From an uncultured Clostridia bacterium (GTDB lineage Bacteria; Bacillota; Clostridia; Oscillospirales; Acutalibacteraceae), in the NCBI GenBank assembly GCA_947631855.1, contig CANRMX010000023.1:1-32850 (forward strand): a stretch of DNA of 32,850 bases, read 5' to 3'. Both the position numbers and the translations under genes were made by a program. Within the stretch, counting starts at the first letter, position 1. The number at the start of each line of letters is the position of its first letter. Under the pieces are notes generated by a model. It searched no databases and had not been told where the DNA came from. It saw only the letters and a list, made by a program, of their open reading frames with translations. Positions 4,694 to 31,882 of the stretch are shown piece after piece.

Positions 4694-4705
4694 AAGGTAT
4701 CCCCT

Positions 4706-7384: not shown

Positions 7385-7412
7385 GAAATCCTCCGCTGTT
7401 TTCGGCGCCCCG

Positions 7413-8627: not shown

Positions 8628-8652
8628 GGGAATTCCTCCTGTATCGTGGTTT

Positions 8653-9588: not shown

Positions 9589-10991
9589 GGCGTGCCGCCT
9601 CCTTTGCCGGTCGGATGATCCTCGATCAGCGCCCGCACCCGGCACACCTGGGCCCGGACGTTTTCCGGCGCGGGGCCGCCCACCACGGTGCGCTCCCGCA
9701 CGCATTTGTCCAAGTTGATAGCCCCATACACGCCCTCATCAAAGGCGGGGCACAGGGCCCGGTATTCCTCCAGCGGCAGGGTCTCCAGCGTGCAGCCCTT
9801 TTCGATGCACACCGCCACCAGCTCGCCGGTGATCTTATACGCGTCCCGGAACGGCAGGCCCTTTTCGGCCACCAGATAATCCGCGCAGTCCGTGGCGTTG
9901 ATGAAGCCTCCAGCGGCGGCCGCCCGCATCCTGTCCGCCCGCACCGTCATGGTCTGCAGCATGGGGATCAGCGGCGTGAGGCACAGCTTCAGGGTATCCG
10001 CCGCGTCGAACACCGCCTCCTTGTCCTCCTGCATATCCTTGTTGTAGGCCAGGGGCAAGCCCTTGAGCATAGTGAGCATCCCCATCAAATCGCCGAACAC
10101 CCGGCCGCTTTTGCCCCGGATCAGCTCCGCCAGATCGGGGTTCTTCTTCTGGGGCATGATGGACGATCCCGTGCAGAACGCGTCGTCCAGCTCGATAAAT
10201 TTGAATTCCCAGGAGCACCACAGCACCAGCTCCTCGCACAGGCGGGAGAGGTGGGTCATGGTCATGGCGCAGCAGAAGCCGATCTCCGCGCAGAAATCCC
10301 GGTCGCTCACTGCGTCCAGGCTGTTCTGGCTCACCGCCGAAAAGCCCAGTAGCGCCGCGGTCCGGGCCCGATCCAGCGGATAGGTGGTGCCCGCCAGCGC
10401 ACCGGCGCCCAGCGGCAGCACGTCCATGCGGTGCAGCGCATCCTCAAAGCGGGAAAGATCCCGCAGCAGCATCTCGCAATAGGCCATGAGGTGGTGCCCG
10501 AAGGTCACCGGCTGGGCCCGCTGCATGTGGGTGTAGCCGGGCATCACCGCTTCGGCGTTTTCCTCGGCCCGGTCGCACAGCACGGCGATCAGCGCCCGCA
10601 TCTGCCCCATCAGCCCGGCGCAGGCCTCCCGGAGATACAGCCGCACGTCCAGCGCCACCTGATCGTTCCGGCTGCGGGCGGTGTGCAGGCGCTTGCCCGT
10701 GTCCCCCAGCCGGGCGGTGAGCTCCGCCTCCACAAAGGTGTGGATGTCCTCCGCATCCGGGTCGATGGGCAGCGCCCCGCTTTCGATATCCCGGAGCAAT
10801 TCCAGCAGCCCCGCCTGCAGCTTTTCGCTTTCCTCGAGGGAGAGGATCCCCTGCTCCCCCAGCATTTTCGCGTGGGCGATGGAGCCCTGAATATCCTGCC
10901 TTGCCATGCGGCTGTCCACGGCGATGCTGGAATTAAAATCGTTGGTTTTGGGGTCCGGCTCCTTGGAGAACCGGCCTTTCCAGAGTTTCAT
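9585..10991 (-). CDS. argH: Argininosuccinate lyase
   Basis: This enzyme splits argininosuccinate into arginine and fumarate, the last step of the pathway. The 468-residue protein has the superfamily signature GSSIMPQKKNPD near residues 280-291, the N-terminal LWKGRFS, and the HTARSRND segment near 105. The ATG at 10991 overlaps the Nudix stop codon as ATGA. The frame continues upstream to 11117 but that part lies in the Nudix gene. Confidence 0.96.
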   Translation of the reverse strand: MKLWKGRFSKEPDPKTNDFNSSIAVDSRMARQDIQGSIAHAKMLGEQGILSLEESEKLQAGLLELLRDIESGALPIDPDAEDIHTFVEAELTARLGDTGKRLHTARSRNDQVALDVRLYLREACAGLMGQMRALIAVLCDRAEENAEAVMPGYTHMQRAQPVTFGHHLMAYCEMLLRDLSRFEDALHRMDVLPLGAGALAGTTYPLDRARTAALLGFSAVSQNSLDAVSDRDFCAEIGFCCAMTMTHLSRLCEELVLWCSWEFKFIELDDAFCTGSSIMPQKKNPDLAELIRGKSGRVFGDLMGMLTMLKGLPLAYNKDMQEDKEAVFDAADTLKLCLTPLIPMLQTMTVRADRMRAAAAGGFINATDCADYLVAEKGLPFRDAYKITGELVAVCIEKGCTLETLPLEEYRALCPAFDEGVYGAINLDKCVRERTVVGGPAPENVRAQVCRVRALIEDHPTGKGGGTP

Positions 10992-11515
10992 GCTTTCCCG
11001 CTCGCTTTCTGCATCCAGTCTAAAAAAGCATCCAAATATCCCTGCATGTGCGCAAACACCGAGGGCGCGAACGCCCCGGCGTCCCGCATCTGCCAGAGCT
11101 CGTCCAGCGTGATCCACTGGGCGGCGTCCGTTTCGCCCGGCTGCAGCCGGACGTCCTCCGCGCGAAAGTGCGCCGTCACGCCGTAATCCAGCCCGATATA
11201 CGGCCAGCGGGACGCGGATTTGCCCAGCAGCTGCACGTCCTCCCGGCGCACGGTGATGCCCGTTTCTTCATACAGCTCCCGCAGGATGGCGTCCTCCGGG
11301 GTCTCTCCGGCACGCACGTGGCCGCCGGTATTTTCCCACTGACCGGGGGCGTAGGGCTTTTCCTTTGCCCGGCGGGTGACGAAAAGATTTCCCTTCCCGT
11401 CCGTCACCCAAATGCCCACGGCCAGCCGGTATTCGTCGGGGCCTAGGGGATCGTCCCGGTCGGCGATGCGGCCGGTCTTCTCCCCGGCGGCGTTATAGAT
11501 GTCGATCCATTCCAT
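10988..11515 (-). CDS. Nudix hydrolase embedded in the arginine operon
   Basis: This 175-residue protein has a complete Nudix box, beginning GHVRAGETPEDAILRE near residue 64 and ending YEETGI, with the REXXEE metal-binding core. The N-terminal part (EWIDIYNAAGEKTG) resembles the isopentenyl-diphosphate-isomerase-like/YfcD branch of Nudix enzymes. Its substrate is unknown. It sits between argG (28-nt gap) and argH (ATGA overlap), so it is co-transcribed and translationally coupled with arginine genes; a direct role in the pathway is not established. Confidence 0.85.
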   Translation of the reverse strand: MEWIDIYNAAGEKTGRIADRDDPLGPDEYRLAVGIWVTDGKGNLFVTRRAKEKPYAPGQWENTGGHVRAGETPEDAILRELYEETGITVRREDVQLLGKSASRWPYIGLDYGVTAHFRAEDVRLQPGETDAAQWITLDELWQMRDAGAFAPSVFAHMQGYLDAFLDWMQKASGKA

Positions 11516-11543
11516 GGTGCTGCTGTCCTGCCGGATGCGCTCT

Positions 11544-12770
11544 TTATTTGTCGTAGGTCAGGCCCTTCTTCGCCTGCACCTTGATGGGCAGGCCGAACAG
11601 GTTGATGAAGCCCGCGGAATCCTTCTGGTCGTAGACTTCGTCCTCGTCGAAGGTGGCGATGTCCTCGTCATACAGGGAATAGGGCGAAGTGACCCCCGCG
11701 TCGATGATGTTGCCCTTATAGAGCTTCAGCTTCACGTCGCCGGTGACGGTCTCCTGGGTGGAATCCACAAAGGCGGAGAGCGCCTGGCGCAGGGGAGTGT
11801 ACCACTGGCCGTAGTACACCAGCTCGGCGAATTTCAGCGCCACCTGCTGCTTATAGTGGTAGGTGTCCCGATCCAGGCACAGCTCCTCCAGCTTGTTGTG
11901 GGCGTGGTACAGGATGGTGCCGCCGGGGGTCTCATACACGCCGCGGGACTTCATGCCCACCAGCCGGTTCTCCACGATATCCGCCAGCCCGATGCCGTTT
12001 TTGCCGCCCAGGTCGTTGAGCTTGGCCACCATTTCCGCGCCGGAGAGGGTCTCGCCGTTGAGAGAAGTGGGCACGCCTTTTTCAAAGTGCAGGGTGATGT
12101 AGGTGGGCGCGTCGGGGGCCTGTTCCGGGGAGACGCCCATCTCCAAAAAGCCGGGCTTGTTGTACTGGGGCTCGTTGGCCGGGTCTTCCAGATCCAGCCC
12201 CTCGTGGGACAGGTGCCACAGATTCTTGTCCTTGGAATAATTGGTCTCCCGGTTGATCCGCAGCGGGATGTTGTGGGCCTCGGCGTAGTCGATCTCCTCC
12301 TCCCGGCTCTTGAGATCCCAAATGCGCCAGGGAGCGATGATCTTCATATCGGGGGCAAAGGCCTTGATGGCCAGCTCGAAGCGCACCTGATCGTTGCCTT
12401 TGCCGGTGCAGCCGTGGCAGATGGCGTCTGCGCCCTCTTTCTTGGCGATCTCCACGATGCCCTTGGCGATGATGGGCCGGGCAAAGGAGGTGCCCAGCAG
12501 GTACTTGTTCTCATACACGGCCCCGGCCTTCACGGTGGGGTACACGTAATCGGTGACGAATTCTTCTTTCAAATCCAATATGTAGAGCTTGGAAGCGCCG
12601 GTCTTTTTGGCCTTTTCCTCCAGGCCGTCCAGCTCGGTACCCTGGCCCACGTCGCCGGAGACGGCGATGACCTCGCAGTTGTTGTAGTTTTCCTTGAGCC
12701 ACGGGATGATGATGGAGGTATCCAGCCCGCCGGAATAGGCCAGCACCACTTTTTTGATTTCGTTCGCCAT
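11544..12770 (-). CDS. argG: Argininosuccinate synthase
   Basis: This enzyme joins citrulline and aspartate using ATP. The 408-residue protein has the N-type ATP-pyrophosphatase P-loop AYSGGLDTS near residues 10-18, [13 protein letters not shown] near 120, and the SPYSLYDED segment in the C-terminal part. The length is typical. It is the first gene of the long arginine operon and follows a good promoter; the ATG at 12770 is preceded by AGAGAGG. Confidence 0.96.
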
Positions 12771-14905: not shown

Positions 14906-15376
14906 TTATCCCGCCAGCGTCAGCGTCCACGGGATGTGGGCCGGCAGCAGCAGATTCAGCTCCCGCCGGGCCTCGGCTTCGGGGATCCCCAAAAGCCGGG
15001 TGGCCGTCACCTGCAGGCCCTCCGCCGTTTCGGTGATCGTCCCCTCGATGCCCGCCGCGGCCAGCGTTCGGGCAAAATCTTCCGGCGTAAAGCCAGTTGG
15101 CCTTACAGACAGCCGGGCCGCCAGCACCTTCCGGCGGTCTTCCAGGTCGGCGGTGGAGGGGTCGGGCTGGAAAATGCGCTCCCACTGGGCCAGCTGCTCT
15201 GCCGAGGCGGTGGCGGCGAAGCAATCCCCAAACAGGGTATCCATGGCCTCCTCCAGCCTGTCCAGCGCCGCTGCAGCCGCGTTCACCTCCCAATCGGCGG
15301 AGGTCTCGCCGGTCAGCCGGTACGCCCGGGTATCGTTCAGGATCTGGCGGATCCGCTCCGCTGCGCCGCCGCTCAT
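14906..15376 (-). CDS. Phage tail/baseplate protein, YmfQ/XkdU-like (DUF2313)
   Basis: This 156-residue protein sits immediately after the gpJ-like gene, where PBSX XkdU and Mu gp48-type proteins are found. The pattern fits that family: an N-terminal helical region, a central LFGDCFAAT...LAQWERIF segment near residues 47-68, a DRRKVLAARL motif, and a C-terminal domain with GIPEAEARRELNLLLPAHIPW. It is probably a baseplate wedge protein linking to fibres, but no fibre gene follows. The start overlaps the previous stop as ATGA. Confidence 0.75.
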   Translation of the reverse strand: MSGGAAERIRQILNDTRAYRLTGETSADWEVNAAAAALDRLEEAMDTLFGDCFAATASAEQLAQWERIFQPDPSTADLEDRRKVLAARLSVRPTGFTPEDFARTLAAAGIEGTITETAEGLQVTATRLLGIPEAEARRELNLLLPAHIPWTLTLAG

Positions 15377-16434
15377 GTGATCTCCCCCGTCACCAGGTTC
15401 CCGATCACCGGCATCACCGCGTCCGCCGCAGGCGCATCCCGCACGCCGGAGCTGAACTGCATCTGGATGGCCGGCACCGCGTCCAGCGCGGCCCGGCTGT
15501 ACTCGGTCAGATACACCGGGTCGCCCACCTGCTTTTTGGCGAACAGGTCGCGGATCGCCTGCTGCACCAGCGCTTCGGCGGCGGCATAATCCGCCCCGGC
15601 GGGCACCTTGAACAGGATGCCCACGTTCACCTTCCGGGCGCTGGCCGCCATCACGTCCACGGTGATCCCCAGCTCCCGGCGCTTTTCAAAGGCCGCCTTC
15701 ACGGCCTCCACCACTTCCTCGCCGGGTGCCGCGCCCTCGCCCCACAGGTAGATGTTCACCGTGCCGTCGCCGCCGCCTCTGGGCACCACCTGGGCCGAGG
15801 TCACACCCGGCTGCGCCAGGGCGATCTCCTTGTAATAGGCGGCGTTGGTGCCGTTATCCGGCTGGGCATAGGCCGCCAGGATGCGGGCGCGGTAGGCTTC
15901 GTCGTACTCCGGGTCGGCGCCGCCGGTGAAAGCCTCCCTGTTCACGCAGTAGTTGATCCCGGCGGGCACCGCGGTCAGCACGGTGATCCGCCCGGAGGCG
16001 CAGTTGCCTGCCCTGCCGCCCAGCACCGCCCGGGCGGGCGCGTCCACGCTCACCTCTCCGGCGGTGAGCACCGTTTCTTCCATTGTCTCATATTCCACCG
16101 GCTCCTCGCCGGAGGTGGCGCACACCGTCCCCTGCGGGATCACCAGATCGAAGCTCATGGGCAGATACCTGGAAAAGGTGATCGTCCCCACCGCGTGGGC
16201 CGCCTCTTTGCGGATGATCCCCCGCTGCTCCCCGTGGAGGTCCAGCCGATCGCCCGTGGCAGTCTGCGGGAAAGCCTCCCGGCGGAGCCACTGGAGCTTC
16301 GCCCACAGCCGGTACAGCTCTCCCGCCAGCACCCGCAGCCGCAGTCCCGTGTCCGAGACGTCCTCCGCCTCATGGCCGCTCTGGGCACGGTACGCCGCCT
16401 CCATGGAGCGCAGTAGTTCTTCAAAGGTCTCCAT
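15373..16434 (-). CDS. Baseplate J/gp47-family wedge protein (XkdT-like)
   Basis: This 353-residue baseplate wedge component is the arm of contractile injection baseplates. Typical features are a helical N-terminus with GDRLDLHGEQRGI near residue 62, a central beta domain with VLGGRAGNCASGRI near 135, a GGADPEYDEAYRARIL motif near 170, and PGVTSAQVVPRGGGDGTVNIYL near 205. The ATG at 16434 has GGGAGG eight nucleotides upstream; the frame to 16455 is a short extension without its own site. It overlaps the gp25-like gene by 14 nt. Confidence 0.88.
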   Translation of the reverse strand: METFEELLRSMEAAYRAQSGHEAEDVSDTGLRLRVLAGELYRLWAKLQWLRREAFPQTATGDRLDLHGEQRGIIRKEAAHAVGTITFSRYLPMSFDLVIPQGTVCATSGEEPVEYETMEETVLTAGEVSVDAPARAVLGGRAGNCASGRITVLTAVPAGINYCVNREAFTGGADPEYDEAYRARILAAYAQPDNGTNAAYYKEIALAQPGVTSAQVVPRGGGDGTVNIYLWGEGAAPGEEVVEAVKAAFEKRRELGITVDVMAASARKVNVGILFKVPAGADYAAAEALVQQAIRDLFAKKQVGDPVYLTEYSRAALDAVPAIQMQFSSGVRDAPAADAVMPVIGNLVTGEIT

Positions 16435-16774
16435 CCTCGTTTCCTCCCTTCTCAAAGCGCACTTCGCCGCTGCCCAGCGGTGTGTTCACCGTAAAGCGAA
16501 CGCTGTCCGCGTCCACGGCCACCGCCGCGATCTCCACGCCCGGAAGCCCCAGCAGGGCCTCCTCGGCAAAGGCGCGGGCGCGCTCGGCGGCGTGTTCCCG
16601 GGTGAGATCCAGCCGGTGCAGACGGCTGCCCAGCGCCCGATCATAGGGAAAGCTGCCTTGGGGCAGATTCAGGCGCAGCGCAAGATTTTGCAGCAGCTCC
16701 TCCAGCCCGCCGATCTCCTCCGGCAGTCCGGCAGCGTTGAGGGCGTACACGCCGTCTTTCAGCTTCAGTGCCAT
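16421..16774 (-). CDS. gp25-like baseplate wedge protein (XkdS-like)
   Basis: This 117-residue protein is located between the spike-like and gpJ-like genes, as gp25/XkdS is in contractile phages. It has the short alpha/beta layout of that family, with a central helix around RAFAEEALLGLPGV and a C-terminal strand VRFTVNTPLGSGEVRF. The ATG at 16774 has GGAGG upstream. In working phages this protein anchors the sheath initiator to the baseplate, which makes the absence of a sheath gene notable. Confidence 0.7.
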   Translation of the reverse strand: MALKLKDGVYALNAAGLPEEIGGLEELLQNLALRLNLPQGSFPYDRALGSRLHRLDLTREHAAERARAFAEEALLGLPGVEIAAVAVDADSVRFTVNTPLGSGEVRFEKGGNEDGDL

Positions 16775-16776
16775 TT

Positions 16777-17106
16777 TCACGCCTCCTGTTTGGCCGGGAA
16801 TACCTGGCCGTTGATGACGATCTCGCCGTTGTTTTTCAGCCAGATCTCCGCGCCGCCCATGGAATAGAGCAGCACTTCGCCCTCTTTGAGGGCGGCGTTG
16901 GGCACGCCGGAGACGCCGGCGTACCGGCCGTTCAGCATCACGGCCCGCTGGCCTCCGGCGGCAAGGCTGGAAAATCCATAGGGGAAAAGCCCCTCCGGGC
17001 TGCGGTATTCGCTCTCCCCTCGGACTTCCAGCTTTTCTCCGCCCATCACCTCGCCGTCCATCAGGGCGGCGGTCTTTGCCCGGTTCAGTTGTTTTGTCAG
17101 CCACAT
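16777..17106 (-). CDS. Baseplate spike-like protein (OB-fold, gpV/gp45-like; XkdR region)
   Basis: This 109-residue protein ends in a strand-rich segment with EIWLKNNGEIVINGQ, the sort of repeat seen at the end of phage baseplate assembly V/spike OB-fold proteins. It follows the hub gene by 4 nt and precedes gp25, matching the canonical hub-spike-wedge order. There is no long beta-helix tip. The function is inferred from order and short motif; it could be an XkdR/DUF2577-type protein. Confidence 0.6.
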   Translation of the reverse strand: MWLTKQLNRAKTAALMDGEVMGGEKLEVRGESEYRSPEGLFPYGFSSLAAGGQRAVMLNGRYAGVSGVPNAALKEGEVLLYSMGGAEIWLKNNGEIVINGQVFPAKQEA

Positions 17107-17110
17107 GGTC

Positions 17111-18019
17111 TTATCCTCCTGCCTGTACAGATTTTTCCGGCGGCCCCAGGGTCAGGCGGGTGCGTTCGCCCTGCCGGTCCCTGCGGTATTGGGCGCTTTC
17201 CACCGGGCAGCGCTCAAATTGTCCGATGCCGGGCAGGGCAATGCTGACGGCCGCGCCGCGGACGGGCCACACCGGGCCCAGGCAGGTCGCCTCCAGCCGG
17301 AAGCTCTCCCGTTCGCCGGCGGCCAGCACCTCCCGGGGCTGCTTTTCGCTGCCCAGCGCCAGATACCGCCTGCGGGGCAGGCCGTGCTCCGCGCCCCGGT
17401 AGAGGGTGTCGTATCCGCCCCGGTAGCTCTGCTGCCACACCTGGCTGATCCGCTTCACCGGCAGCAGGCGCAATTGGGCCTCCGTGATCTCGCTCAGCTC
17501 CACCTGCTGCTCCGCTTGGCCTGCGCACTGCACCGTGCCGTCCGGCTCCACATAGGGCGTGGTGCCCAGAAAATCCCGGCAGAAGCCCGCCAGCACACTC
17601 CAGCAGCTTTTTCCCTTTTCGATGTTCATCTCCCCCGGGCGGCTTGCCCGGTCGCCCTCGCCCAGCCGCAGCCCCAGTGGGGTCAGCAGCCTGGCCTCCA
17701 GCACCTCCAATGAAGGGCTGGTCACAATGCCCGGCGGGGCTTCGTTATCCAGCAGCAGGGCCTCCAGGCTCCGGCCCACCAGTTCCAGGGTCAGCCCGTC
17801 CCCGGAGATGCGCGTGTTCTGCTCGTCCACAATGCCGGCAAAGACCTGCCGCCTGCCCGCAAACACCCGCACCCGGACCATCTCCTCCAGCGCGGCTGCC
17901 ACCGGGAATCGTGCCTTGAAGCCGTCGGCGGGCGCGTCCCGATCAAAAGAAAGCGCCGCCTCCTGGGGCTCGCCCAGCAGGAACCGGTCGCCGCCTGCGG
18001 TCTCTCCCCAAAAGATCAT
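17111..18019 (-). CDS. Baseplate hub / late control D-like protein (XkdQ-like)
   Basis: This 302-residue protein matches the tail hub family (gpD, gp27, XkdQ). It has an N-terminal beta domain with VRVRVFAGRRQVFAGIVDEQ near residue 45-64, then GLTLELVGRSLEALLLDNEA, and an internal CWSVLAGFCRDFLGTTPYVE helix near 140. The C-terminal barrel has RRRYLALGSEKQPREVL. Its ATG overlaps the LysM gene stop as ATGA. In a particle it would form the central ring through which DNA or tube passes. Confidence 0.75.
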   Translation of the reverse strand: MIFWGETAGGDRFLLGEPQEAALSFDRDAPADGFKARFPVAAALEEMVRVRVFAGRRQVFAGIVDEQNTRISGDGLTLELVGRSLEALLLDNEAPPGIVTSPSLEVLEARLLTPLGLRLGEGDRASRPGEMNIEKGKSCWSVLAGFCRDFLGTTPYVEPDGTVQCAGQAEQQVELSEITEAQLRLLPVKRISQVWQQSYRGGYDTLYRGAEHGLPRRRYLALGSEKQPREVLAAGERESFRLEATCLGPVWPVRGAAVSIALPGIGQFERCPVESAQYRRDRQGERTRLTLGPPEKSVQAGG

Positions 18020-18531
18020 GGAATGCGCACCTCCTCGCCTGCCTCAAGCGCCGCGATATCGGCGATCTGCGGATTCGCCTCCACCAGCGCGTCGATGCTC
18101 CGCCCGTACCGTCCGGCGTAGTCCCACAGGCTCTCGCCCTGCTGCGCCCGGTGGGCGCCCGCCCCATCGTAGGGCTCCCGGCCGTCCGTCTCGGTAAAGG
18201 CAAACCCGTAGCGGATCAGCTCCTTGCCCGCCGTGCCGATGAGCCGCAGTTCCTCCATCACCGCGAAGAACGGCTCCTGTCCCGGCAGGCAGAGGCTGCC
18301 CGGCCCGCCGCTGCGGTACACGGCGCTGAGAGCCAGCCACCGCCGCCAGCAGTCCGGGCCGGCAAAGTACCCTTCCCCGGTGATCTTCCGCTTCCTCCGG
18401 CCCAGGTCCTGTGCCCGGGAGCCGGCGAAGGGCAGCAGGGTCTCCACCACGCTGCGCTCCTCCCGCACCGTGAGGGCGGTGGGGTTGTCCTCCCAGAAAA
18501 AATCCTTAAAGCTCATGCCCATGAGATTCAC
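18016..18531 (-). CDS. LysM-containing tail/baseplate protein (XkdP-like)
   Basis: This 171-residue protein has an N-terminal phage domain (MSFKDFFWEDNP... RKRKITGEGYFAG) and a C-terminal LysM module at about residues 125-171 (QQGESLWDYAGRYG, then ANPQIADIA). The module probably binds peptidoglycan or the spike. The corresponding XkdP/gp53-like protein helps attach tail to baseplate. I chose the GTG at 18531, eight nucleotides after GGGAGG, over a GTG at 18540 that abuts the site. In complete phages the tape measure is usually directly upstream; here it is not. Confidence 0.75.
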   Translation of the reverse strand: MNLMGMSFKDFFWEDNPTALTVREERSVVETLLPFAGSRAQDLGRRKRKITGEGYFAGPDCWRRWLALSAVYRSGGPGSLCLPGQEPFFAVMEELRLIGTAGKELIRYGFAFTETDGREPYDGAGAHRAQQGESLWDYAGRYGRSIDALVEANPQIADIAALEAGEEVRIP

Positions 18532-18546
18532 GGCACGCACCTCCCG

Positions 18547-18630
18547 TCATTCCAAAATCTCCGCCGGATAGCGGCGGCTGTCCCGCTCGATCTCCCGGGA
18601 CAATTCCTCCACCCGTTCGATTTCTTCCAA
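18547..18630 (-). CDS. 27-residue phage peptide with TTG start
   Basis: A 28-codon frame begins with TTG eight nucleotides or less after GGAGGGAGC and ends 15 nt before the LysM gene. The predicted peptide is charged and helical (EEIERVEELSREIERDSRRYP). It fills the only gap in this part of the operon, which argues it is translated. It may be a remnant or analogue of the small proteins that lie before the tape measure in tailed phages. The function is unknown. Confidence 0.5.
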   Translation of the reverse strand: MEEIERVEELSREIERDSRRYPAEILE

Positions 18631-18642
18631 TTTGCTCCCTCC

Positions 18643-19317
18643 TCACGCCTTCTCTCTGGATACGAACACCGCCCGGCGCAGGGCGGCGGAAATGGATTTC
18701 CACCGGCACCGGCGGTAGATTTCCGGCGGCGTGCCGATCTCCGCGGTGAACCGCGCCAAACTTTCCAGCCCTTCCGGGGCGATGCCGTCCAGCTCCACGG
18801 TGTATTCCGTGACGGGCTCCTCCACCGCGAAAGGGAGCTCCTCGCCGATGGCGGTGAGGTCGTCCCCTCCAAAGGCGATGGAGAGCTTCACGGCCTCCGC
18901 CTGAAATTCTCTGCCGCCCAGCGTCACCGGCACCGTCTCCCCGGGCGACGCGCTCTCCTCCGTGAGAAAGGTCAGGGTGCAGGGGATCACCAGCATCCCG
19001 GTGGTTTTCTCCACCTGGGCGGCGCCCCGGGCAATGGCGGAAAATCCGGGGTAGGCTTCTCCGGCGGCCTTGCACATGGCGGCGAAAATCTCCTGTCCAC
19101 GGCTTGCGCCCGTGCCCGCCGGCAGGAAGATTTTGAACCTGAGCCGCAGTTCGTCGGAGCCGGGCTTCACGGTCTCCCCGTCGATCTCGCCGGTCACCAC
19201 CGGGCGGCCCACCCGCCGCGCACCCTGTTCGCCGGGATAGGCGGGGCGGAAATCAACCCCGGGAATTTTCCCGGAAAACAAGTTGAGCAGCGCTTCCAGC
19301 AGCTCCATGGCCGTCAT
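18643..19317 (-). CDS. Phage neck/tail-completion-like protein of unknown function, two-part
   Basis: This 224-residue protein has no firm family assignment. The first part (about residues 1-115) has the alternating strand pattern of a small tail-completion or terminator domain (KPGSDELRLRFKIFLPAG, GMLVIPCTLTF). The second part (about 125-224) is another beta-rich unit with VKLSIAFGGDDLTAIGEE and TEYTVELDGIAPEGLES. It occupies the position where terminator, sheath, tube and chaperones normally lie, so it may be the only shaft-related protein. The ATG at 19317 is spaced correctly from AAAGGAGG. It overlaps the upstream gene by 65 nt. Confidence 0.55.
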   Translation of the reverse strand: MTAMELLEALLNLFSGKIPGVDFRPAYPGEQGARRVGRPVVTGEIDGETVKPGSDELRLRFKIFLPAGTGASRGQEIFAAMCKAAGEAYPGFSAIARGAAQVEKTTGMLVIPCTLTFLTEESASPGETVPVTLGGREFQAEAVKLSIAFGGDDLTAIGEELPFAVEEPVTEYTVELDGIAPEGLESLARFTAEIGTPPEIYRRCRWKSISAALRRAVFVSREKA

Positions 19318-19624
19318 CCCCATCCCTCCTTTCCACCAGCACCCTGAGGCAGATTTCGTGCTCCCCCAGGGCCAGCTTTTTCACGTCCAGCACGGCGTAG
19401 CGCTGCCCGTGCTGCTCCAGTTCGCCGCCCCATAGCGCGGCAGGGTCCTCAAAATACCCGATAAAGCGGTACAGCGGCCGGGAAAGTTCCCCCAGCAGGT
19501 GCCGCAGCCCGCCGATCTCCGCCCTGTCCCTTTGCAGCGGCGCGATGAGCCCATACCCCATGACCGGCTCTCCTTCTGCCGGGAACAGCGTCACCCGGCC
19601 CGCCCGGCGGAACACCCGCTGCAT
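19253..19624 (-). CDS. Small head-closure/neck-like phage protein
   Basis: This 123-residue protein starts MQRVFRRAGRVTLFPAEGE and contains YAVLDVKKLALGEHEICLRVLVERR, a strand-rich region. By position, second after the capsid, it would be the head-closure or stopper protein. The C-terminal 20 or so residues lie in the 65-nt overlap with the next gene and look low in conserved character. The start at 19624 has GGAG seven nucleotides upstream. The assignment is by synteny only. Confidence 0.5.
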   Translation of the reverse strand: MQRVFRRAGRVTLFPAEGEPVMGYGLIAPLQRDRAEIGGLRHLLGELSRPLYRFIGYFEDPAALWGGELEQHGQRYAVLDVKKLALGEHEICLRVLVERRDGDDGHGAAGSAAQLVFRENSRG

Positions 19625-19637
19625 CCTGGGCTCCAAA

Positions 19638-20012
19638 TCAGGCAAGGCCAAAGTAGAACGCCTCCTCTCCCAGCAGACGGCCAAGGGCCGCCAGCGTTTC
19701 GTCCCGCAGCAGCTTTGCCTTTTCGCTCCTGCCGGTGAGGTCCAGCGAGATTCCGTCCGCCGAAAGGCTTTTGGGCAGCGCGGCTTCGTCGGTGAGCGCC
19801 AGCTGATAGAACGCCTCCGCCGCGCACCAGCTCTCCGCCAGGGCAGCGGCCGCCGGGGCGTCGATCCCGTGCCGCGATAGATAACTTTCCCCACGGGCCA
19901 GCGCGTCCTCGCAGAGGGCGGCGCAGAGCCGGCCCCGGACGGTGTCTTCATCGGGGTCCTCTCCGCTGAAAAGTGCAAACCGCTCCTTCACCCGTTCCAG
20001 TGACAGCGTCAC
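19638..20012 (-). CDS. Head-tail connector (gp6/gp15-like adaptor)
   Basis: This 124-residue mostly helical protein begins MTLSLERVKERFALF and has the acidic GEDPDEDTVRGRLCAALCEDAL helix, a common shape for phage head-tail adaptors. The GTG at 20012 is six nucleotides after GGGAGG. It is the first gene after the capsid, the usual adaptor position, and would dock under the portal. Confidence 0.6.
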   Translation of the reverse strand: MTLSLERVKERFALFSGEDPDEDTVRGRLCAALCEDALARGESYLSRHGIDAPAAAALAESWCAAEAFYQLALTDEAALPKSLSADGISLDLTGRSEKAKLLRDETLAALGRLLGEEAFYFGLA

Positions 20013-20029
20013 AAAATGCCTCCCTTCAT

Positions 20030-20062
20030 AAGGAGAAAGAGGGGCGGCAGACCCGCCGCCCC
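20030..20062 (-). terminator. GC hairpin after the capsid gene, possible partial terminator
   Basis: Perfect 8-bp arms at 20041-20048 and 20055-20062 are followed on the minus strand by a pyrimidine-rich, T-containing tract. It lies 14 nt after the capsid stop codon. Such hairpins after capsid genes can limit downstream expression so that capsid is made in excess. Confidence 0.5.
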
Positions 20063-20076
20063 GTCTCCCAAACAAA

Positions 20077-21078
20077 TCATTCGGAATAGCTGATCCCCTG
20101 GGCCGCGCCCTCGTAGATGCGGGCAAACCCGGCGATGGCGCTGATGGCCGCCCGCTCCAGCTGGCGGTCGATGAGCTTGTCGCTGTCGGTGATCACGCCG
20201 CCGGCCTGCACCATCTCCAGCGCGCAGTCCTTGTCCAGCACCACGATCTTGCCGCTCTCCATGCCGGGCACATGGATGAGCTTCGCGCCCAGCGGCGTCC
20301 CGGCGTACCCCGTGCCCTGGAAGTTCATCCCGGCCTGAGGGTCCTTGAATTCGGCAATGTTGAGGATCTTCTCCATGGCTCCGGTCCCGGCCAGAATGGT
20401 GTTCAGGCGGTAGGGGGTCAGCCGGCCCCAGGCGGCGATGAAGTCGCTGTAGGCCGGAGTACCGCTCTCAAAGGAGACGCCCGGCTTCACCCCGTCGCCG
20501 TTCACCAGGGCGTTCACCGCGTCCTGCATCTGGGCGGCGGCGATGTACGCGCCGATCTGCCGCAGGGCAACGGAAAGCAGGTCCAGCTTCTGGAAGCGCA
20601 GCGCCTCGTAGGAGCTGACCAGCATCCGGCCGCGCTTGTGCAGCTGCACCAGCCCCTTGCCGGCGGTGATGTGGGTGACGGGCAGCTGGGCGCCCTCGCC
20701 CACCACCGGGAAGGGCTCGTCGCCGGATTCCTCCGCGCTGATGGTGCGGTAATCCATGGCGTCGATGTTGGTGACGGCGGCCACGATCTCCGTGACCCGG
20801 GCGGCACGCTCCATGCCCTGCTGCACGGAACGGGCCACATATTCCGGGAACAGCGCCGCCCCGGAGGTGGTGGCGAAGAAGCTGTCCACGGTGCCGGAAT
20901 CCGGCCCGCTGACGCGGATGCCGTAGCGCATCAGCTGCCGCTGATAGGCGTCCATCCCCTCCAGCGGAGTGCCCAGATAGTTGTCGCTGCTGTCCAGCTC
21001 CTCCAGCACCTGGGTAAAGCTCTTGCCGGGCATGGCGTACATGCCCTTTTCCAGTGTGATGTTTTCAAACCCTGCCAT
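20077..21078 (-). CDS. Major capsid protein (HK97-fold-like)
   Basis: This 333-residue protein has the properties of a phage coat. There is an N-terminal arm, then YVARSVQQGMERAARVTEIV near residue 92, an E-loop-like basic stretch QLHKRGRMLVSSYEAL near 150, and a C-terminal VITDSDKLIDRQLERAAIS. It follows the protease and decoration genes, the standard order. The ATG at 21078 is seven nucleotides after GGGAGG; the ATG at 21084 is too close to that site. Confidence 0.8.
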   Translation of the reverse strand: MAGFENITLEKGMYAMPGKSFTQVLEELDSSDNYLGTPLEGMDAYQRQLMRYGIRVSGPDSGTVDSFFATTSGAALFPEYVARSVQQGMERAARVTEIVAAVTNIDAMDYRTISAEESGDEPFPVVGEGAQLPVTHITAGKGLVQLHKRGRMLVSSYEALRFQKLDLLSVALRQIGAYIAAAQMQDAVNALVNGDGVKPGVSFESGTPAYSDFIAAWGRLTPYRLNTILAGTGAMEKILNIAEFKDPQAGMNFQGTGYAGTPLGAKLIHVPGMESGKIVVLDKDCALEMVQAGGVITDSDKLIDRQLERAAISAIAGFARIYEGAAQGISYSE

Positions 21079-21096
21079 GTTCATTCCTCCCTGTTT

Positions 21097-21426
21097 TTAC
21101 AGAATCACGCCGGCGATGCCGTTCTGCACGTCCACTACCGTCAGGCCCCGGCCGCCCTCCTCGGCGGTCTTGAGCTTGTCGCCGGATACGTTCACCGTCT
21201 GCCAGCCCACCGTGAGCCCACCGTCGCAGGGCACCCGGACATAGCCCCCAATCTGCACCGTGGCCACGTCGCCCCAGATGCTCTGGGCCACGCCCACGGG
21301 CACGTCGCTGTCGGCGCACTTGGCCACCTTGCCGTTGGCGGTCACCTTCACCATATCTCCGGCGGCCACGCCGTCGGCCTCGAAGGTGGCGGTCACACTT
21401 CCGATCCCTTCAAACGAAACTTTCAT
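21097..21426 (-). CDS. Capsid decoration / head-stabilising protein (DUF2190-like)
   Basis: This 109-residue all-beta protein has a repeating pattern (TATFEADGVAAGDMVKVTANGK and VGVAQSIWGDVATVQIGGYV). It resembles small capsid-stabilising proteins that sit next to major capsid genes. AAAGGAG precedes the ATG at 21426. It likely binds the outer surface of the head; this is inferred from fold pattern and position. Confidence 0.65.
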   Translation of the reverse strand: MKVSFEGIGSVTATFEADGVAAGDMVKVTANGKVAKCADSDVPVGVAQSIWGDVATVQIGGYVRVPCDGGLTVGWQTVNVSGDKLKTAEEGGRGLTVVDVQNGIAGVIL

Positions 21427-21488
21427 ACTCGAACTCCTTTCAGAATATTTGCAAATGCCTGCGCTTGCCGCGCACGCCTTTTGCCGAT

Positions 21489-22457
21489 TTAGATTCGGAA
21501 CGCCGCGTGGACGTTCGTGTCGGAACCCCTGGGGGCTTCCGGCGCCAGCTGGGGCTTCAGGGGCAGCACCTCTGCGGCCATCTCCTCATAGGCGCGGTCA
21601 AGCTGCACCAGCTCCTCGTCGCTGAGCCCTTCCAGGGCAGATTTCAGCACCTCTCTGGGCACCCTGGGCTGCACGATCCCGCCCAGGCGCAGGGCTTTTT
21701 CCCGCAATTCTTCACGGTACTGCGCCCCAAAGGCCGCCTGCCGGGTCAGCTCCTCCAGCCGCTTTTGAAGCTGCCGGGTCTCATAGGCGGAAAGCCCCTG
21801 CCCCTGACGGCTGGCCTCCTGCAAGCGCTTTTCCAGCGTCCCGGCCCAGTCCTCGGAGAAGCTCTTGCGCACGCCGGCCTCCCGCTGGGCGGGCACCGCC
21901 ACAAAGGAGCACTCGTAGGCGTCGGTGGGCTCCTCCAGGATGTGCACGCAGAGTTTGCCCTGATAGGTCTGCCCCTTCTCGTGGGCGCAGCCGGTCTCTC
22001 CGCAGACGGAGCACACCGCCCGCTGCACCGCGCAGCTGATGCTCACCTCTTTCAGAATGCCGCTTTCGATGAGCTCGATGGTCTCCTGATTTTTCGGGGT
22101 CCTGGGCAGATAGGCCCGGGCGGTCAGGCGGGTGTAGGGCTCGCCGGCCCGGGTGGTGCGGCCGGGCTCCTGCTCCACCGCCGTGTCGTAGATGCGGGCA
22201 GTCTGATTGAAGCTCTTCCGCTCGTGGTCCAGAATACAGGTCTTGCCCAGGAAAAGCGCTTGCAGCTTTTCCAGCGCGTCCACGGAGAACCGTTCATAGT
22301 CCCGGTCCACCTCGTTATCGCACAGCACCAGCGAGAAGGTATACACTTCCTCGGGGGCAAATTCCCGGCGGGTGTAGCGGTTGATCTGCTCCATCTCGCC
22401 GGGCGTGAGGCTGCCGCTTTCCAGCACGAAGCCTTCCTTTACACCGATCTCACTCAT
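21489..22457 (-). CDS. Capsid maturation protease with C-terminal scaffold-like region
   Basis: This 322-residue protein has an N-terminal prohead protease domain with CDNEVDRDYERFS near residue 46, CILDHE near 74 (candidate catalytic His), and KEVSISCAV near 135 (candidate Ser). A CSVCGETGC cysteine cluster near 148 could hold a metal. The C-terminal third (about 205-300) is strongly helical and charged, as in scaffold domains fused to such proteases. Its ATG overlaps the portal stop by 8 nt. It would cut scaffold and capsid during head assembly. Confidence 0.75.
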   Translation of the reverse strand: MSEIGVKEGFVLESGSLTPGEMEQINRYTRREFAPEEVYTFSLVLCDNEVDRDYERFSVDALEKLQALFLGKTCILDHERKSFNQTARIYDTAVEQEPGRTTRAGEPYTRLTARAYLPRTPKNQETIELIESGILKEVSISCAVQRAVCSVCGETGCAHEKGQTYQGKLCVHILEEPTDAYECSFVAVPAQREAGVRKSFSEDWAGTLEKRLQEASRQGQGLSAYETRQLQKRLEELTRQAAFGAQYREELREKALRLGGIVQPRVPREVLKSALEGLSDEELVQLDRAYEEMAAEVLPLKPQLAPEAPRGSDTNVHAAFRI

Positions 22458-23574
22458 GGTCCTCCTCCTTTAACGTCTTTTCCAGCTGCATGGCCCGGGC
22501 GGTGAGGTACCGGGCGTTGGCGTGGTCCACCTCGTCCTGCATGGTGATCTCGTCCCACTCCACCCGGCATTCGGGGGAATAGCCCGCCACCAGCAGCCAG
22601 GTGGAAGCGATCTTCTTCACCACCGGGGTGAGCAGCCGGCGATAGGCTTCCAGCTCGCTGGTGAGCACGTCGGCCTGCTGGCTGGACATCCGCTCGGTGG
22701 AGCTCCAGTTGAGCCCCAGCAGGAACGGCGGCAGGCCCAGCTTGGCCACGATCTGCTCCAGCATCTGCCGCACGGGCACGTCGCTGTCCAGCAGCTGATT
22801 GTCCGACCCGATGGCCTTGATGGACACATCCCCCACGGCCACGAAGTCGCTGACCTCCCGGCTGCGCATGGCCTTTTTCCATTCGGCGGCCATCTGGCGG
22901 GCGCGGTCGGCGGCGGAGAAGCCGCTCTCCTGGCCGGGCTTGCAGGTGACGGCGAAGCGCACGTTGCCCAGTCTATCCCAATTGACCCCCACCGTGCGGT
23001 AGACCTTCATCAGCACCTCGCTGACAAAGGGCAGCCCGCGGAGGATCGACACGCCCCAGGGGCTGCCGGGCTGGGGATTCAGGGCGGAGACCAGCAGCAG
23101 CTCGGGATAGGGGCAGGGCCTTTTCCGGCCCTGTTCCACCACGGCGATGCGGGTCTCCAGGGGGCTGGGGGCCGTCAGCTCCAGATGCTCCAGATCGGCG
23201 TTGTACAGCCCGGCGATCTGCCCGCCGCTCATCACGATCTCGCCCACGGCGGTGCCGTAGGTCAGCAGGGATTCCAGATACATCCCGATAAATTCCTGCA
23301 TCCCGCGGCTGGCGGCGCCCACCTGCACCCCTTCGCAGAAGTCCTGCAAAGCGGCCTCGGCCTTTGGGTCGGGGCAGGTCACGGTGAATTCGCCGATCAG
23401 CCTGCGCAGCTTGTAGATGGCCGCGTCGATGATGGGCACCGAATGCCTGAGGGCCCGGTACAGGCTGCGTTCGGCCGCGCCCGAGGGCACGGGGTCGATC
23501 CAGGGCTCCCGGGGTTGGGGGCTGCTCTGCACGCTGGCGGCGGCCACCGAGGACCGGGGCTTAAACAATCCCAT
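22450..23574 (-). CDS. Phage portal protein
   Basis: This 374-residue protein lies between the large terminase and the protease. Portal features include the N-terminal YRALRHSVPIIDAAIYKLRR near residue 40, QEFIGMYLESLLTYGTAVGEIV near 90-112, KLGLPPFLLGLNWSSTERMS near 280, and a helical wing before the C-terminus. It would form the dodecameric DNA gate of the head. The start is ambiguous: ATG at 23574 is twelve nucleotides from AAAGGAG, and ATG at 23583 only three. Confidence 0.83.
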   Translation of the reverse strand: MGLFKPRSSVAAASVQSSPQPREPWIDPVPSGAAERSLYRALRHSVPIIDAAIYKLRRLIGEFTVTCPDPKAEAALQDFCEGVQVGAASRGMQEFIGMYLESLLTYGTAVGEIVMSGGQIAGLYNADLEHLELTAPSPLETRIAVVEQGRKRPCPYPELLLVSALNPQPGSPWGVSILRGLPFVSEVLMKVYRTVGVNWDRLGNVRFAVTCKPGQESGFSAADRARQMAAEWKKAMRSREVSDFVAVGDVSIKAIGSDNQLLDSDVPVRQMLEQIVAKLGLPPFLLGLNWSSTERMSSQQADVLTSELEAYRRLLTPVVKKIASTWLLVAGYSPECRVEWDEITMQDEVDHANARYLTARAMQLEKTLKEEDHE

Positions 23575-23614
23575 GGGAAACATCAACTCCTTTTCCAAAA
23601 TTGCCACGCCGTCC

Positions 23615-24862
23615 CTATGCGCTGGCCACCGCGAAGAAGCGGTCCTCCTCCACGGGGGCGGGCAGCAGGGTCGAGACGAAATACCGGATATCGTCCATGG
23701 CGTGGTCGTTCTCCTTGACGGGCACATCCCGTGCCAGGTCGTCCTTCCAGCGGTAGAGGGTAAATTCCCGGGCGGCGTCGGCGCAGCTGCGGCAGATCTT
23801 GATCTTCCCCTCCTTCAGCGCGTCGGAGACCTGGCGGATGCCGTCCAGCACGTCGTTTTTCGCAGGGATCACGGTAAATCTGCCGTGGCGGCGGATGACC
23901 TCCATAAAGCTGGCGGCGCTGGGGTCCACGGTGATCCTGCGGACAGGGCGGTCGCCGCAAAGCGCCTCGAGGCCGCGGTAGTGCTCCTCATCCGTGCGGG
24001 ATTCGCCGGTCTCCCGGGCGGCGTAGTAGTATTCGTCCACCCGGTACCAGCAGCCCCGCTGCAATCCCCACAGCCCGAAGGACGCGGGATTCAGGGTGCC
24101 GTAGTCGCAGGACACCGCCCAATCCTCAAAGGGCCCGGGCGGCACGTCGCACAAAAGCCCCTCCGCAAAGGGATAGACCAGCCCCTGGGCGGCGACCCAT
24201 CTGCCCTCGATGAAGCGCTGGTAGAACACGCCGGAGAACATCCGCCGGTACCGCTCCCGAATCTCGGGGGTGAGGCTGGGGTTGTCCTCCATGGTGAAGT
24301 GCAGATAGAGGGCGTCGCGCTCCCGGCGCTTCTCGATCCACTCCCGGTAGAACCAGTGGCCGGGGTGCTCGGGATTGCAGTTGAACCAGAATTTCGCTCC
24401 CGGCACCGAACACCGGGCCATGGCCTGCTCCACGAAGGAGCGGGGCATCAGAGCCACCTCGTCGAAGAGGACGCCCGCCAAAGTCATGCCCTGGATCAGG
24501 GAGGCCGCAGCCTCGTCCTTGCCGCCGAACAGGTAAAACCGGTTTTTCCGGCTGCCGGCGGCGACCGTCACCAGATTCTGGCTGATCTTGTCCTTCACCC
24601 CGAAGCCCATGGCGGCCAGTCCCGGGAGCAGATCGTTCAGCAGATTCCTGCGCACGCTGCGGATGGTCTTGCCGCAGAGGGCAAAGCTCCTGCCGGAAAA
24701 AGCCGCCATGGCCCAGTTGACGAAGGACAGTCCCATGCACAGGGTCTTGCCGCTGCGCACCGCCCCGTCGCAGATCAGCGCGGCACGGTGGCGGTCCGGA
24801 CTGCCGGCGGCCCACCAGCAGAGCACCCGCAGCTGCTTGGGAGAAAAAGCCGTCAGCTGCAC
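23615..24862 (-). CDS. terL: Phage terminase large subunit (PBSX-type)
   Basis: This 415-residue DNA-packaging motor has an ATPase domain with Walker A GAVRSGKT at about residues 33-40 and Walker B VLFDEVAL near 133, plus a coupling segment with FNCNPEHPGHWFYREWI near 160. The C-terminal nuclease domain has a first acidic residue in VSCDYGTLNPASFGL near 250 and further acidic residues in TVDPSAAS and AMDDIRYFVST. All key residues that I can see are intact. The GTG start at 24862 overlaps the small subunit by 10 nt. Confidence 0.92.
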   Translation of the reverse strand: MQLTAFSPKQLRVLCWWAAGSPDRHRAALICDGAVRSGKTLCMGLSFVNWAMAAFSGRSFALCGKTIRSVRRNLLNDLLPGLAAMGFGVKDKISQNLVTVAAGSRKNRFYLFGGKDEAAASLIQGMTLAGVLFDEVALMPRSFVEQAMARCSVPGAKFWFNCNPEHPGHWFYREWIEKRRERDALYLHFTMEDNPSLTPEIRERYRRMFSGVFYQRFIEGRWVAAQGLVYPFAEGLLCDVPPGPFEDWAVSCDYGTLNPASFGLWGLQRGCWYRVDEYYYAARETGESRTDEEHYRGLEALCGDRPVRRITVDPSAASFMEVIRRHGRFTVIPAKNDVLDGIRQVSDALKEGKIKICRSCADAAREFTLYRWKDDLARDVPVKENDHAMDDIRYFVSTLLPAPVEEDRFFAVASA

Positions 24863-25170
24863 GGTTCCGCCTCCCCGCTTCTAGCAAGAGCGGCCGCGCC
24901 CCGCTCCAGCGCCTGCAGGAAATCGCTGCCGCCGCTGTCCGTGTCGGCCATTTCCCGCAAGCGGTCCAGCGCCTGCAGCCGGTCGTAGAATTTGATCTCC
25001 ATCCCGCCGCCCTTGATCCGCCGGATCTCCGACACGCAGAAAAGGTCCAGATTTTTCACCCGGCAGGAACCGGCGTCCTCATAGAACAGCAGCTTCACCG
25101 CATCGTTGACGCCGCCGAAAGCGATCTTTCGGTAGCCGTCCGCCACGTCGTCTTTTGCCGATCCTTCCAA
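24853..25170 (-). CDS. Phage terminase small subunit-like protein
   Basis: This 105-residue protein begins with TTG four to eight nucleotides after GGAAGGAGGAG. It has a short helical domain with IAFGGVNDAVKLLF near residue 16 and a LDLFCVSEIRRIKGGGMEIKFYDRL region near 45-68, a pattern I associate with small terminases of gut Firmicutes phages. The frame stays open far upstream but overlaps the divergent TM2 genes. It should recognise the packaging site and load the large subunit. Confidence 0.65.
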   Translation of the reverse strand: MEGSAKDDVADGYRKIAFGGVNDAVKLLFYEDAGSCRVKNLDLFCVSEIRRIKGGGMEIKFYDRLQALDRLREMADTDSGGSDFLQALERGAAALARSGEAEPCS

Positions 25171-25184
25171 GAAACTCCTCCTTC

Positions 25185-25204
25185 CCGGCGGAACGTCCCG
25201 CCGG
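25185..25204 (-). other. 7-bp GC hairpin just before the small terminase ribosome binding site
   Basis: Perfect arms at 25185-25191 and 25198-25204 flank a 6-nt loop, directly upstream of the GGAAGGAGGAG site. It could influence translation or be part of a packaging signal. Confidence 0.4.
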
Positions 25205-25430: not shown

Positions 25431-25461
25431 AAACCCAAACCAATAAGGAGAGGTGTCCGTA

Positions 25462-25773
25462 ATGTCCGATTATCAAAATTATCCGCAGCAGCCCGCCTAT
25501 AATTACCAACCCAACCAGGGGATCGAACCGCCCCCCGGCTATGTGCAGAAAAGCCGGATCGCCGCGGGGATCTTCGCCATGCTGCTGGGGGTCTACGGCA
25601 TCCACAGCTTCTACCTGGGCAATTCCTCCAGAGGGCTCATGCAGCTGCTGATCTCCCTGCTCACCTGCGGCGTCGGGGCCATCGTCATGGCTATCTGGGG
25701 CATCCTGGATGGCATCAAGATCCTGGACGGCCGCATCAACACCGACTTTAACGGCGTGTACCTGAAGGACTGA
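25462..25773 (+). CDS. TM2-domain membrane protein
   Basis: This 103-residue protein has a polar, Tyr/Pro/Gln-rich N-terminus (about residues 1-30) followed by a TM2 domain. The domain is two transmembrane helices with KSRIAAGIFAMLLGVYGIH and FYLGNSSRGLMQL, the hallmark GxxGxHxFYLG pattern. The ATG at 25462 is eight nucleotides from GGAGAGG; a GTG nine nucleotides earlier overlaps that site. TM2 proteins are widespread and poorly understood; a role in envelope stress or surface interaction is only a guess. Confidence 0.85.
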   Translation: MSDYQNYPQQPAYNYQPNQGIEPPPGYVQKSRIAAGIFAMLLGVYGIHSFYLGNSSRGLMQLLISLLTCGVGAIVMAIWGILDGIKILDGRINTDFNGVYLKD

Positions 25774-25810: not shown

Positions 25811-26365
25811 ATGATTGACAACGAAAACCTGACCCCCGAAAATCCCGCCGAGCCCACTGCCGAGAGCGCCCAGCCGGTGCCGCCCCAGTACGCCCCGCCG
25901 GATTACACCGCTGCCGCCCGGAACGCCGGGGCCGATTACAAGGCCCCTCAGGAGCAGCCCATTCCGCCCGGGTATGCGCCGCCCCAGTACACCCACCCCG
26001 AGTACGCGCAGAATCCCAACCCCAATCCCAATCCTGCGCCCCAGGCCTACCCGGCCTATGATCCGCAGCAGTCCACCTATTATAAGCCCCGGTACGATAC
26101 GCCTCCCGCGGGCTATCAGCAGAAGAGCCGCCTGGCGGCCGGGCTGCTGGGCGTGCTGTTTGGCATGTTTGGCATCCACAATTTCTACCTGGGTTTCAAC
26201 ACCCGGGCCATCATCCAGCTGGTGGTCACCCTGGCCGGCGGCGCACTCACCTGCGGCGTAGCCGCCGTGGCCATGGAGATCTGGGGCCTCATCGAGGGCG
26301 TCCAGCTGATCTCCGGCAACCCCTCCCGGATGTACGACGGCAACGGCGTCATCACGCGGGAATAA
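25811..26365 (+). CDS. TM2-domain membrane protein with proline-rich N-terminus
   Basis: This 184-residue protein has a long disordered Pro/Tyr/Ala/Gln-rich N-terminal region (about residues 1-105) including an NPNPNPNP run, then a TM2 domain with KSRLAAGLLGVLFGMFGIH and NFYLGFNTRAIIQL near 108-145. It lies 37 nt after the first TM2 gene and shares its layout, so the two are probably duplicates in one operon. AAAGGAG precedes the ATG. A strong terminator follows. The function is unknown. Confidence 0.85.
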   Translation: MIDNENLTPENPAEPTAESAQPVPPQYAPPDYTAAARNAGADYKAPQEQPIPPGYAPPQYTHPEYAQNPNPNPNPAPQAYPAYDPQQSTYYKPRYDTPPAGYQQKSRLAAGLLGVLFGMFGIHNFYLGFNTRAIIQLVVTLAGGALTCGVAAVAMEIWGLIEGVQLISGNPSRMYDGNGVITRE

Positions 26366-30324: not shown

Positions 30325-30413
30325 GGAGAGTTGTCCGAGTGGTCGAAGGTGCAGCACTCGAAATGCTGTGTTCCCTCAAGGAACCTAGGGTTCGAATCCC
30401 TAACTCTCCGCCA
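30325..30413 (+). tRNA. tRNA-Ser(CGA)
   Basis: This 89-nt class II tRNA has a 7-bp acceptor stem GGAGAGT/ACTCTCC, a D-arm with GAGTGGTCGAAGG, and an anticodon loop CTCGAAA giving anticodon CGA (reads UCG). It has a long variable arm (GTTCCCTCAAGGAAC), a T-arm GGGTTCGAATCCC, and an encoded discriminator G plus CCA. The long variable arm is diagnostic of Ser, and all arms pair. Confidence 0.96.
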
Positions 30414-30455
30414 AAAAGTCCAGTAACCATGCGGGTTTCTGGACTTTTTCCTTTT
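30413..30455 (+). terminator. Terminator after tRNA-Ser
   Basis: Arms AAAAAGTCCAG (30413-30423) and CTGGACTTTTT (30439-30449) form an 11-bp stem followed by a T-rich tract. Confidence 0.75.
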
Positions 30456-30488
30456 CCGGCAAAGTGTTTTCAGAGCACCGCATTTTTA

Positions 30489-30526
30489 GGGCAGAACAAC
30501 ATTTTTTGGGGGCAGAACAACATTTT
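30489..30526 (+). promoter_or_regulatory. Candidate integrase arm-type sites, right pair
   Basis: The 17-mer GGGCAGAACAACATTTT occurs at 30489-30505 and 30510-30526, immediately beside the integrase stop codon. Paired direct repeats next to the gene fit arm-type binding sites of Tn916/lambda-type integrases. Confidence 0.55.
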
Positions 30527-31757: not shown

Positions 31758-31796
31758 TCTTTAACTCCTTTCTTTTCTTCGGCAAACAGGACAGCT

Positions 31797-31830
31797 CACA
31801 CCGACAAGAACAGTATACCTTGCCGGTGTG
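31797..31830. promoter_or_regulatory. 12-bp inverted repeat upstream of the integrase
   Basis: Arms 31797-31808 and 31819-31830 (CACACCGxCAAG/CTTGxCGGTGTG) pair, with one A/C mismatch on the plus strand or a G-T wobble on the minus, around a GTATAC-containing loop. It sits 39 nt before the integrase start and lacks a T-run, so an operator or mRNA leader stem is more likely than a terminator. Confidence 0.5.
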
Positions 31831-31882
31831 GGTTCTGCCACTGTGCGATTTTGTCTTTTGAAAATGCCGCTCGGCTCGAATT

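Follow-up and report, generated by a model that had tools for sequence, protein, structure and literature searches.

What could a bacterium build from phage packaging, capsid and baseplate genes that leave almost no coding space for a tail? The question is raised by a 32,850-nucleotide stretch (contig CANRMX010000023.1 of assembly GCA_947631855.1; hereafter the window) from an uncultured Clostridia bacterium of the Acutalibacteraceae, represented by a draft genome of 1.84 Mb that is 81% complete. Phage head, packaging and neck genes sit here in a host chromosome with host genes on both flanks. The module spans positions 14906-25194, is made up of tightly packed open genes, all on the minus strand, and follows the order terminase-portal-capsid-connectors-LysM-hub-gp25-gpJ-gp48. 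A preliminary description of the window counted fifteen intact, packed genes; the open frames, common strand and close spacing hold, and the count becomes 16 with the small terminase subunit TerS and a 109-aa open reading frame (ORF). It also placed only one protein of ~224 aa and one 27-aa peptide in the coding space between connectors and LysM, as we find. Its report of no lysis genes and no integrase is accurate for the module itself, with lysis-type genes present elsewhere in the genome and a tyrosine integrase, separate from the module, ~5 kb beyond it behind host genes.

The locus probably comprises the structural genes of a vertically inherited, phage-derived particle resembling a gene transfer agent (GTA). 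In such a particle, the terminase would fill a small capsid with random host DNA, and the neck would be closed by a single short tail ring bearing the baseplate. The ~224-aa protein (p226) would form the terminator ring as well as the tube ring; with one protein in both roles, the six-fold neck would fix the number of tube copies, and gene fusion, with no long tape measure, would set tail length. The 27-mer (p27) would be the surviving hub-side end of a protein at the tape-measure position, and lysis genes located elsewhere in the genome would serve the particle, which would be released and deliver its DNA.

The connector–LysM junction and the reduction of the tail

p226 (224–226 aa) is not recognized by PHROGs or Pfam. 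It has a two-domain fold, a tail terminator followed by a tail tube, and its homology to tail tubes was found by comparison; p226 is thus a fusion of these two folds. A different fusion, of stopper and tube, occurs in six other loci, where the match to the tube (E 6e-23) is supported by the fold. A literature search mostly beyond subscription journals returned no report of such a fusion or of a tail-reduction series.

The peptide p27 begins at a TTG codon preceded by a Shine-Dalgarno sequence. It is no chance ORF: the window and 17 relatives of the genus (excluding L017, a duplicate of G004) share a conserved stretch around ERAEELSREIERDSRRYP, and the proportion of synonymous differences is 0.60 compared with 0.185 for nonsynonymous differences (18 rows, 153 pairs). 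Some of these relatives have no start codon at the matching place. When a hidden Markov model (HMM) of its 22-residue core was run against 23,898 stop-to-stop ORFs, 46 non-seed hits of at least 5 bits were obtained, 41 of them in LysM loci; 33 of the 41 end up no more than 200 nt upstream of LysM, and 13 of the 46 lie away from this place. The 33 include ORFs of 140–239 residues in sheath-bearing loci, and every tail class, the sheathed one among them, has loci with the motif ahead of LysM. The last ORF bearing it is 123–265 aa long in 19 of 26 sheathed loci (those measured) and 41–75 aa, counted from the longest possible start, in at least 14 of 17 loci with separate terminator and tube. Contractile phages have their tape measure just ahead of the LysM position, and the pre-LysM motif ORFs would accordingly be tape measures, p27 being what remains at that position. 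In L044, the one sheathed example scanned, the pre-LysM ORF had no match in PHROGs or Pfam.

Tail classes were assigned with our own HMMs to 97 loci carrying capsid and LysM genes, a tally that excludes L046-L057 (resident prophages and other terminases), L021 and L041. Sheath genes were found in 26 loci, separate terminator and tube in 17, the terminator–tube fusion in 20 (18 of the genus, G250 and one viral contig) and the stopper–tube fusion in 6; another 11 have a gap below 1,050 nt with neither terminator nor tube found, and 17 are unsheathed without further class. Among viral contigs, a 14-row capsid alignment found 316 relatives (best 80 kept); the window capsid as a single query found none. 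Among 40 loci of other genera, 14 are sheathed (families f14, f26, f2 and f7), 14 are unsheathed with a baseplate (f1), 6 stop after the hub (f26; ORFs read in five), 3 (L191, L201 and L179, f1) stop after an ORF at the terminator position with host genes next, and 3 were left unclassed.

The 18 genus loci showed no sheath gene, and the same holds for 18 loci of the family's other genera (one cut by a contig end); the sheath family PF04984 has no match anywhere in the window's own, 81% complete genome. Sheath matches occur in 6 of 40 close relatives (5 over the cut-off): four carry the module and have the sheath on other contigs, and two are without the module. The window's gene order without a sheath recurs in all 18 junction-spanning genus loci, the window included. 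A recent private deletion, as would follow from the in-frame collapse that the preliminary description considered, was therefore rejected: genus and family loci are equally sheathless, and sheathed relatives belong to other families. The fully tail-less particle it offered instead is not supported either; the sheath is indeed absent, but the tail shaft is not wholly so, because p226 holds a tube domain, and the 27-mer is a remnant at the tape-measure position.

Because the sheathed relatives of other families, with sheath and tube, end their 123–265-aa pre-LysM protein in the p27 motif, a contractile tail was shrunk, probably to one ring. On balance we favour a more specific account, by a modest preference: that the tail was cut stepwise to exactly one tube ring through two different fusions of the tube with a neck ring, the tape measure dwindling to ~25 residues, and that baseplate or tail were lost elsewhere as DNA-packaging genes were kept. 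Covalent stoichiometry, with no ruler, would then set the tail length of a DNA-packaging particle that the host owns and that occurs across a Clostridia order.

PBSX of Bacillus subtilis is likewise chromosomal and has the LysM/hub/gp25/gpJ/XkdU order seen in the window; PBSX-type loci also hold a sheath, a tube stack, a chaperone and a long tape measure, all absent here. One rival reading is a killing particle, whose baseplate-bearing heads would bind and damage competitors as PBSX does, with no gene delivery. In its favour, the LysM, hub and wedge genes are constrained, and a study of the Faecalibacterium agent FpGTA raises the same precedent (PMC12946183). We nevertheless consider such a function unlikely, as there is neither a sheath nor a tube stack for envelope puncture, and some relatives without a baseplate or any tail genes retain terminase and capsid.

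Inheritance and selection

The capsid gene was found in 43 of 295 genomes sampled across the order, one copy each, including 20 of 26 in family f1. In the closer set it is present in 21 of 40 genomes: that of the window, 19 of the 24 further members of the genus, and a single genome from another family. A gpJ of the module type is present in the window's own genome and 20 of the 24; the comparison genomes are drafts, in which gene absence is weak evidence. Two capsid genes stand apart from these. G001 carries a second, lone copy (L041, G001:C72), 48–51% identical, beside which no further module gene was found, and a contig of a Candidatus Omnitrophota metagenome-assembled genome (L021, JAJDBZ010000239.1) carries a capsid gene of 40% identity set in another gene order.

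Patristic distances follow those of host rpoB, with Spearman coefficients of 0.85 for portal (28 genomes), 0.71 for capsid (28) and 0.76 for gpJ (26), and for each gene none of 1,000 permutations was as high. The trees contain 28 of 30 searched genomes (G038 dropped out for want of an rpoB match and G036 for want of a capsid), and some nodes disagree, for example in the placement of G156 in the capsid tree. Chromosomal position is also shared. On the gp48 side, hflX adjoins the module in nine genus members, the window among them, and in 8 of the 40 loci of other genera; with the six genera of the latter, seven share this neighbour. A second downstream flank is common to six genus members, and a TM2-type gene adjoins the module in 15 genus genomes, whichever of the two chromosomal sites it occupies. 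By these measures the module passes down with its host lineage and keeps to conserved sites.

These data bear on whether the locus is a satellite of the capsid-forming kind of phage-inducible chromosomal island (PICI). Such islands encode their own terminase, portal, capsid and connectors and are mobile, with an integrase and tails supplied by a helper. G288, G260 and G232, which stop after the gene at the terminator position, would fit this, having a layout in which a head could accept a foreign tail. The module, however, contains no integrase or replication gene, none was recognized by reading upstream of five relatives, and the window element owns a baseplate. Together with the shared sites and the rpoB congruence, this makes a satellite quite improbable.

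Ratios of nonsynonymous to synonymous substitution (dN/dS, NG86 method) were computed for ten pairs, with the ORF ends of stopper, adaptor and gp48 uncurated and some running long. They were 0.04–0.46 in eight pairs, 0.12–0.56 between the window and G009 and 0.36–0.64 between the window and G004, several dS values being near saturation and one infinite; host-gene controls gave 0.04–0.26 (six of the ten pairs, up to three genes each). The module is constrained, yet it evolves faster than its neighbours. The open frames and ratios of 0.04–0.64 bear out the earlier suggestion of selection rather than decay. A decaying prophage whose frames are open only through a lag could account for the capsid gene in two pieces in G012 and G018 and for G024, which has no protease-to-hub stretch, although assembly faults are possible in all three drafts. 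With dN/dS below 1 in the tested genes, constraint on p27 as well and orthologues spanning genera, we regard decay as very improbable.

Terminases, lysis genes and the likeness to FpGTA

The window's TerS matches PF03592 (Terminase_2) only from profile position 64 of 141, the N-terminal DNA-binding half being absent; for packaging of random host DNA this would be an indirect pointer. Among 114 loci with terL, 36 have the TerS core with a DNA-binding part, 36 the core only, 16 the core only with little upstream sequence, and 26 no core match. A reduced TerS is also known from RcGTA of Rhodobacter, a vertically inherited head-packaging-tail locus with a small capsid, which differs in its siphovirus-type tail with a tape measure.

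The large subunit TerL of the window type is encoded in cis in 3 of 21 module-bearing genus genomes (G000, the window's own, G004 and G009). In 12 of the other 18, no terL lies upstream of portal in the 1.5 to >5 kb fetched, and in the remaining 6 a search of the draft genomes found no TerL of this type. Seventeen of the 18 carry an unlinked, orthologous TerL (PF04466 8.8e-57 in G019) with no blastp match to window TerL at 1e-5, next to which lie a repressor homologue (17 of 17), a holin (15) and an amidase (9); in the eighteenth, G002, both ends of this repressor-terminase-lysis locus fall on two contig edges. The two terminases were not seen together in any genome; G009 has one further terminase-type match at 2.4e-8. 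The conserved repressor-TerS-TerL-holin-amidase locus (L240-L257) is without capsid genes and adjoins spoIIE in four fetched genomes. The idea that loss of the terminase meant no packaging was set aside once the unlinked TerL had been found. A protein nanocompartment with a docking baseplate and DNA packaging lost would likewise be suggested by the 18 of 21 genomes without window-type TerL; given their unrelated terminase elsewhere, beside a repressor and mostly with a holin, and the TerL retained in cis in the window, this is scarcely probable.

The window's own genome encodes, on G000:C1 and unlinked to the module, a holin (PF05105 3e-35) and an Amidase_2 protein (1.6e-19) with an open frame, no TerL beside them, and it also has a repressor homologue. 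The holin and amidase may serve release of the particle.

As described (PMC12946183), FpGTA of Faecalibacterium forms ~40 nm capsids with ~9 kb of DNA and no identifiable tail, and is encoded by two loci; the operon was present in 12 of 12 Faecalibacterium genomes and in that genus only, and packaging events were reported for Ruminococcaceae (17 of 25), Oscillospiraceae (3 of 25) and Christensenellaceae (3 of 25). From that text, shared features are the class Clostridia, a packaging/capsid operon of ~10 kb, a TerS without an obvious DNA-binding domain, no identifiable tail, and a capsid locus accompanied by a second locus with lysis genes. By the same text, the baseplate genes of FpGTA are in operon II, in contrast to the capsid locus here, and its authors call it podovirus-like, the words 'sheath' and 'contractile' being absent from their text (PMC12946183). 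The module may thus be akin to FpGTA, likened by gene content and description rather than by sequence. Its capsid profile found no relative in the PDB.

Five relatives come from database records submitted as human-faecal phage, four of which were retrieved. One, MT835508.1 (L042; Bacteriophage sp.), is by ORF reading a bacterial chromosome segment, in which rnf and ribosomal-protein operons surround a module relative that stops after the terminator; this would fit host DNA that was encapsidated, or else contamination.

Several points weigh against a GTA-like particle. Particle, packaging and transfer in this lineage are predicted from genes. The sequence similarity of p226 is weak for its N-terminal half compared with separate terminators (3.3%) and weak to none compared with tubes of unsheathed relatives (0.9%); since these links are weak, the terminator half is assigned by fold. 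Of the 24 other members of the genus, 5 lack the capsid gene, among them G007 and G008, which are 99–100% complete; in G012 and G018 it is split into two fragments, 126 kb apart in the latter. Between window and G004, module dN/dS is 0.36–0.64 compared with 0.15–0.26 for host genes. G007 and G014, which are without the capsid gene, carry the unlinked TerL as well, and all eight genomes searched for an S24 repressor have one, whether or not the capsid gene is present.

Module genes, neighbours and implications

The neighbours on both sides are host genes. On one side is hflX, adjoined by an arginine biosynthesis cluster (window 3785-12770); on the other, TM2-type genes are accompanied by nagB and by genes for a MATE transporter and a periplasmic-binding protein. 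In G019, G021, G003 and G009 (L030, L032, L035 and L025), the gap between gp48 and hflX holds a gene of 161–175 aa, fibre-like by reading, for which the gap in the window leaves no room. Window positions 30325-32803 look like a separate integrative element, in which the tyrosine integrase gene adjoins tRNA-Ser(cga) and a ParB-like gene lies at the end of the contig.

Table 1. Genes of the module and possible associates, in window positions.
Feature	Position	Strand	Basis
TerS, small terminase subunit, C-terminal half only	24853..25194	-	PF03592; start uncertain
TerL, large terminase, kept in cis	23615..24862	-	phrog_2 5.5e-44, PF03237 8.8e-12
Portal	22450..23583 (longest ORF to 23727)	-	phrog_30703 2.1e-125
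Head maturation protease-like	21489..22457	-	phrog_16951 2.3e-97 (family of unknown function), phrog_80 7.4e-5
Small virion structural / decoration-like protein	21097..21426	-	phrog_4588 7.3e-12
Major capsid protein	20077..21084	-	phrog_3922 5.8e-78; relatives found
Head-tail adaptor	19638..20039 (longest ORF to 20126)	-	by position; conserved in relatives; no family matched in library scan
Stopper-like connector	19253..19684 (longest ORF to 19978)	-	by position; conserved in relatives; sole match phrog_28741 0.042
p226, tail terminator (res. 1-123) fused to tail tube (res. ~124-224)	18643..19317	-	fold
p27, 27-aa peptide at tape-measure position	18547..18630	-	conserved in genus; HMM
LysM / DNA_circ_N baseplate hub protein	18016..18540	-	PF01476 3.1e-5, PF07157 6.9e-5, phrog_184
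Baseplate hub	17111..18019	-	phrog_177 6.9e-17
109-aa protein between hub and gp25	16777..17106	-	phrog_25991 4.3e-6 (family of unknown function)
gp25-like baseplate wedge	16421..16762	-	phrog_43 2.5e-4
gpJ-like baseplate wedge	15373..16440	-	PF04865 4.9e-48
gp48/XkdU-like wedge	14906..15376	-	PF10076 1e-12
Small TM2-like protein, possible associate	25453..25773	+	by reading; similar gene beside module in relatives
TM2-domain protein, possible associate	25811..26365	+	PF05154 1.8e-11

These loci raise two questions: what the minimum tail length for delivery is, and why DNA-packaging capsids are retained by hosts as the delivery device vanishes. They are candidates for GTA-like packaging outside Faecalibacterium, and as a series they offer living intermediates from a contractile tail to a short or absent one, its length apparently fixed by fusion.

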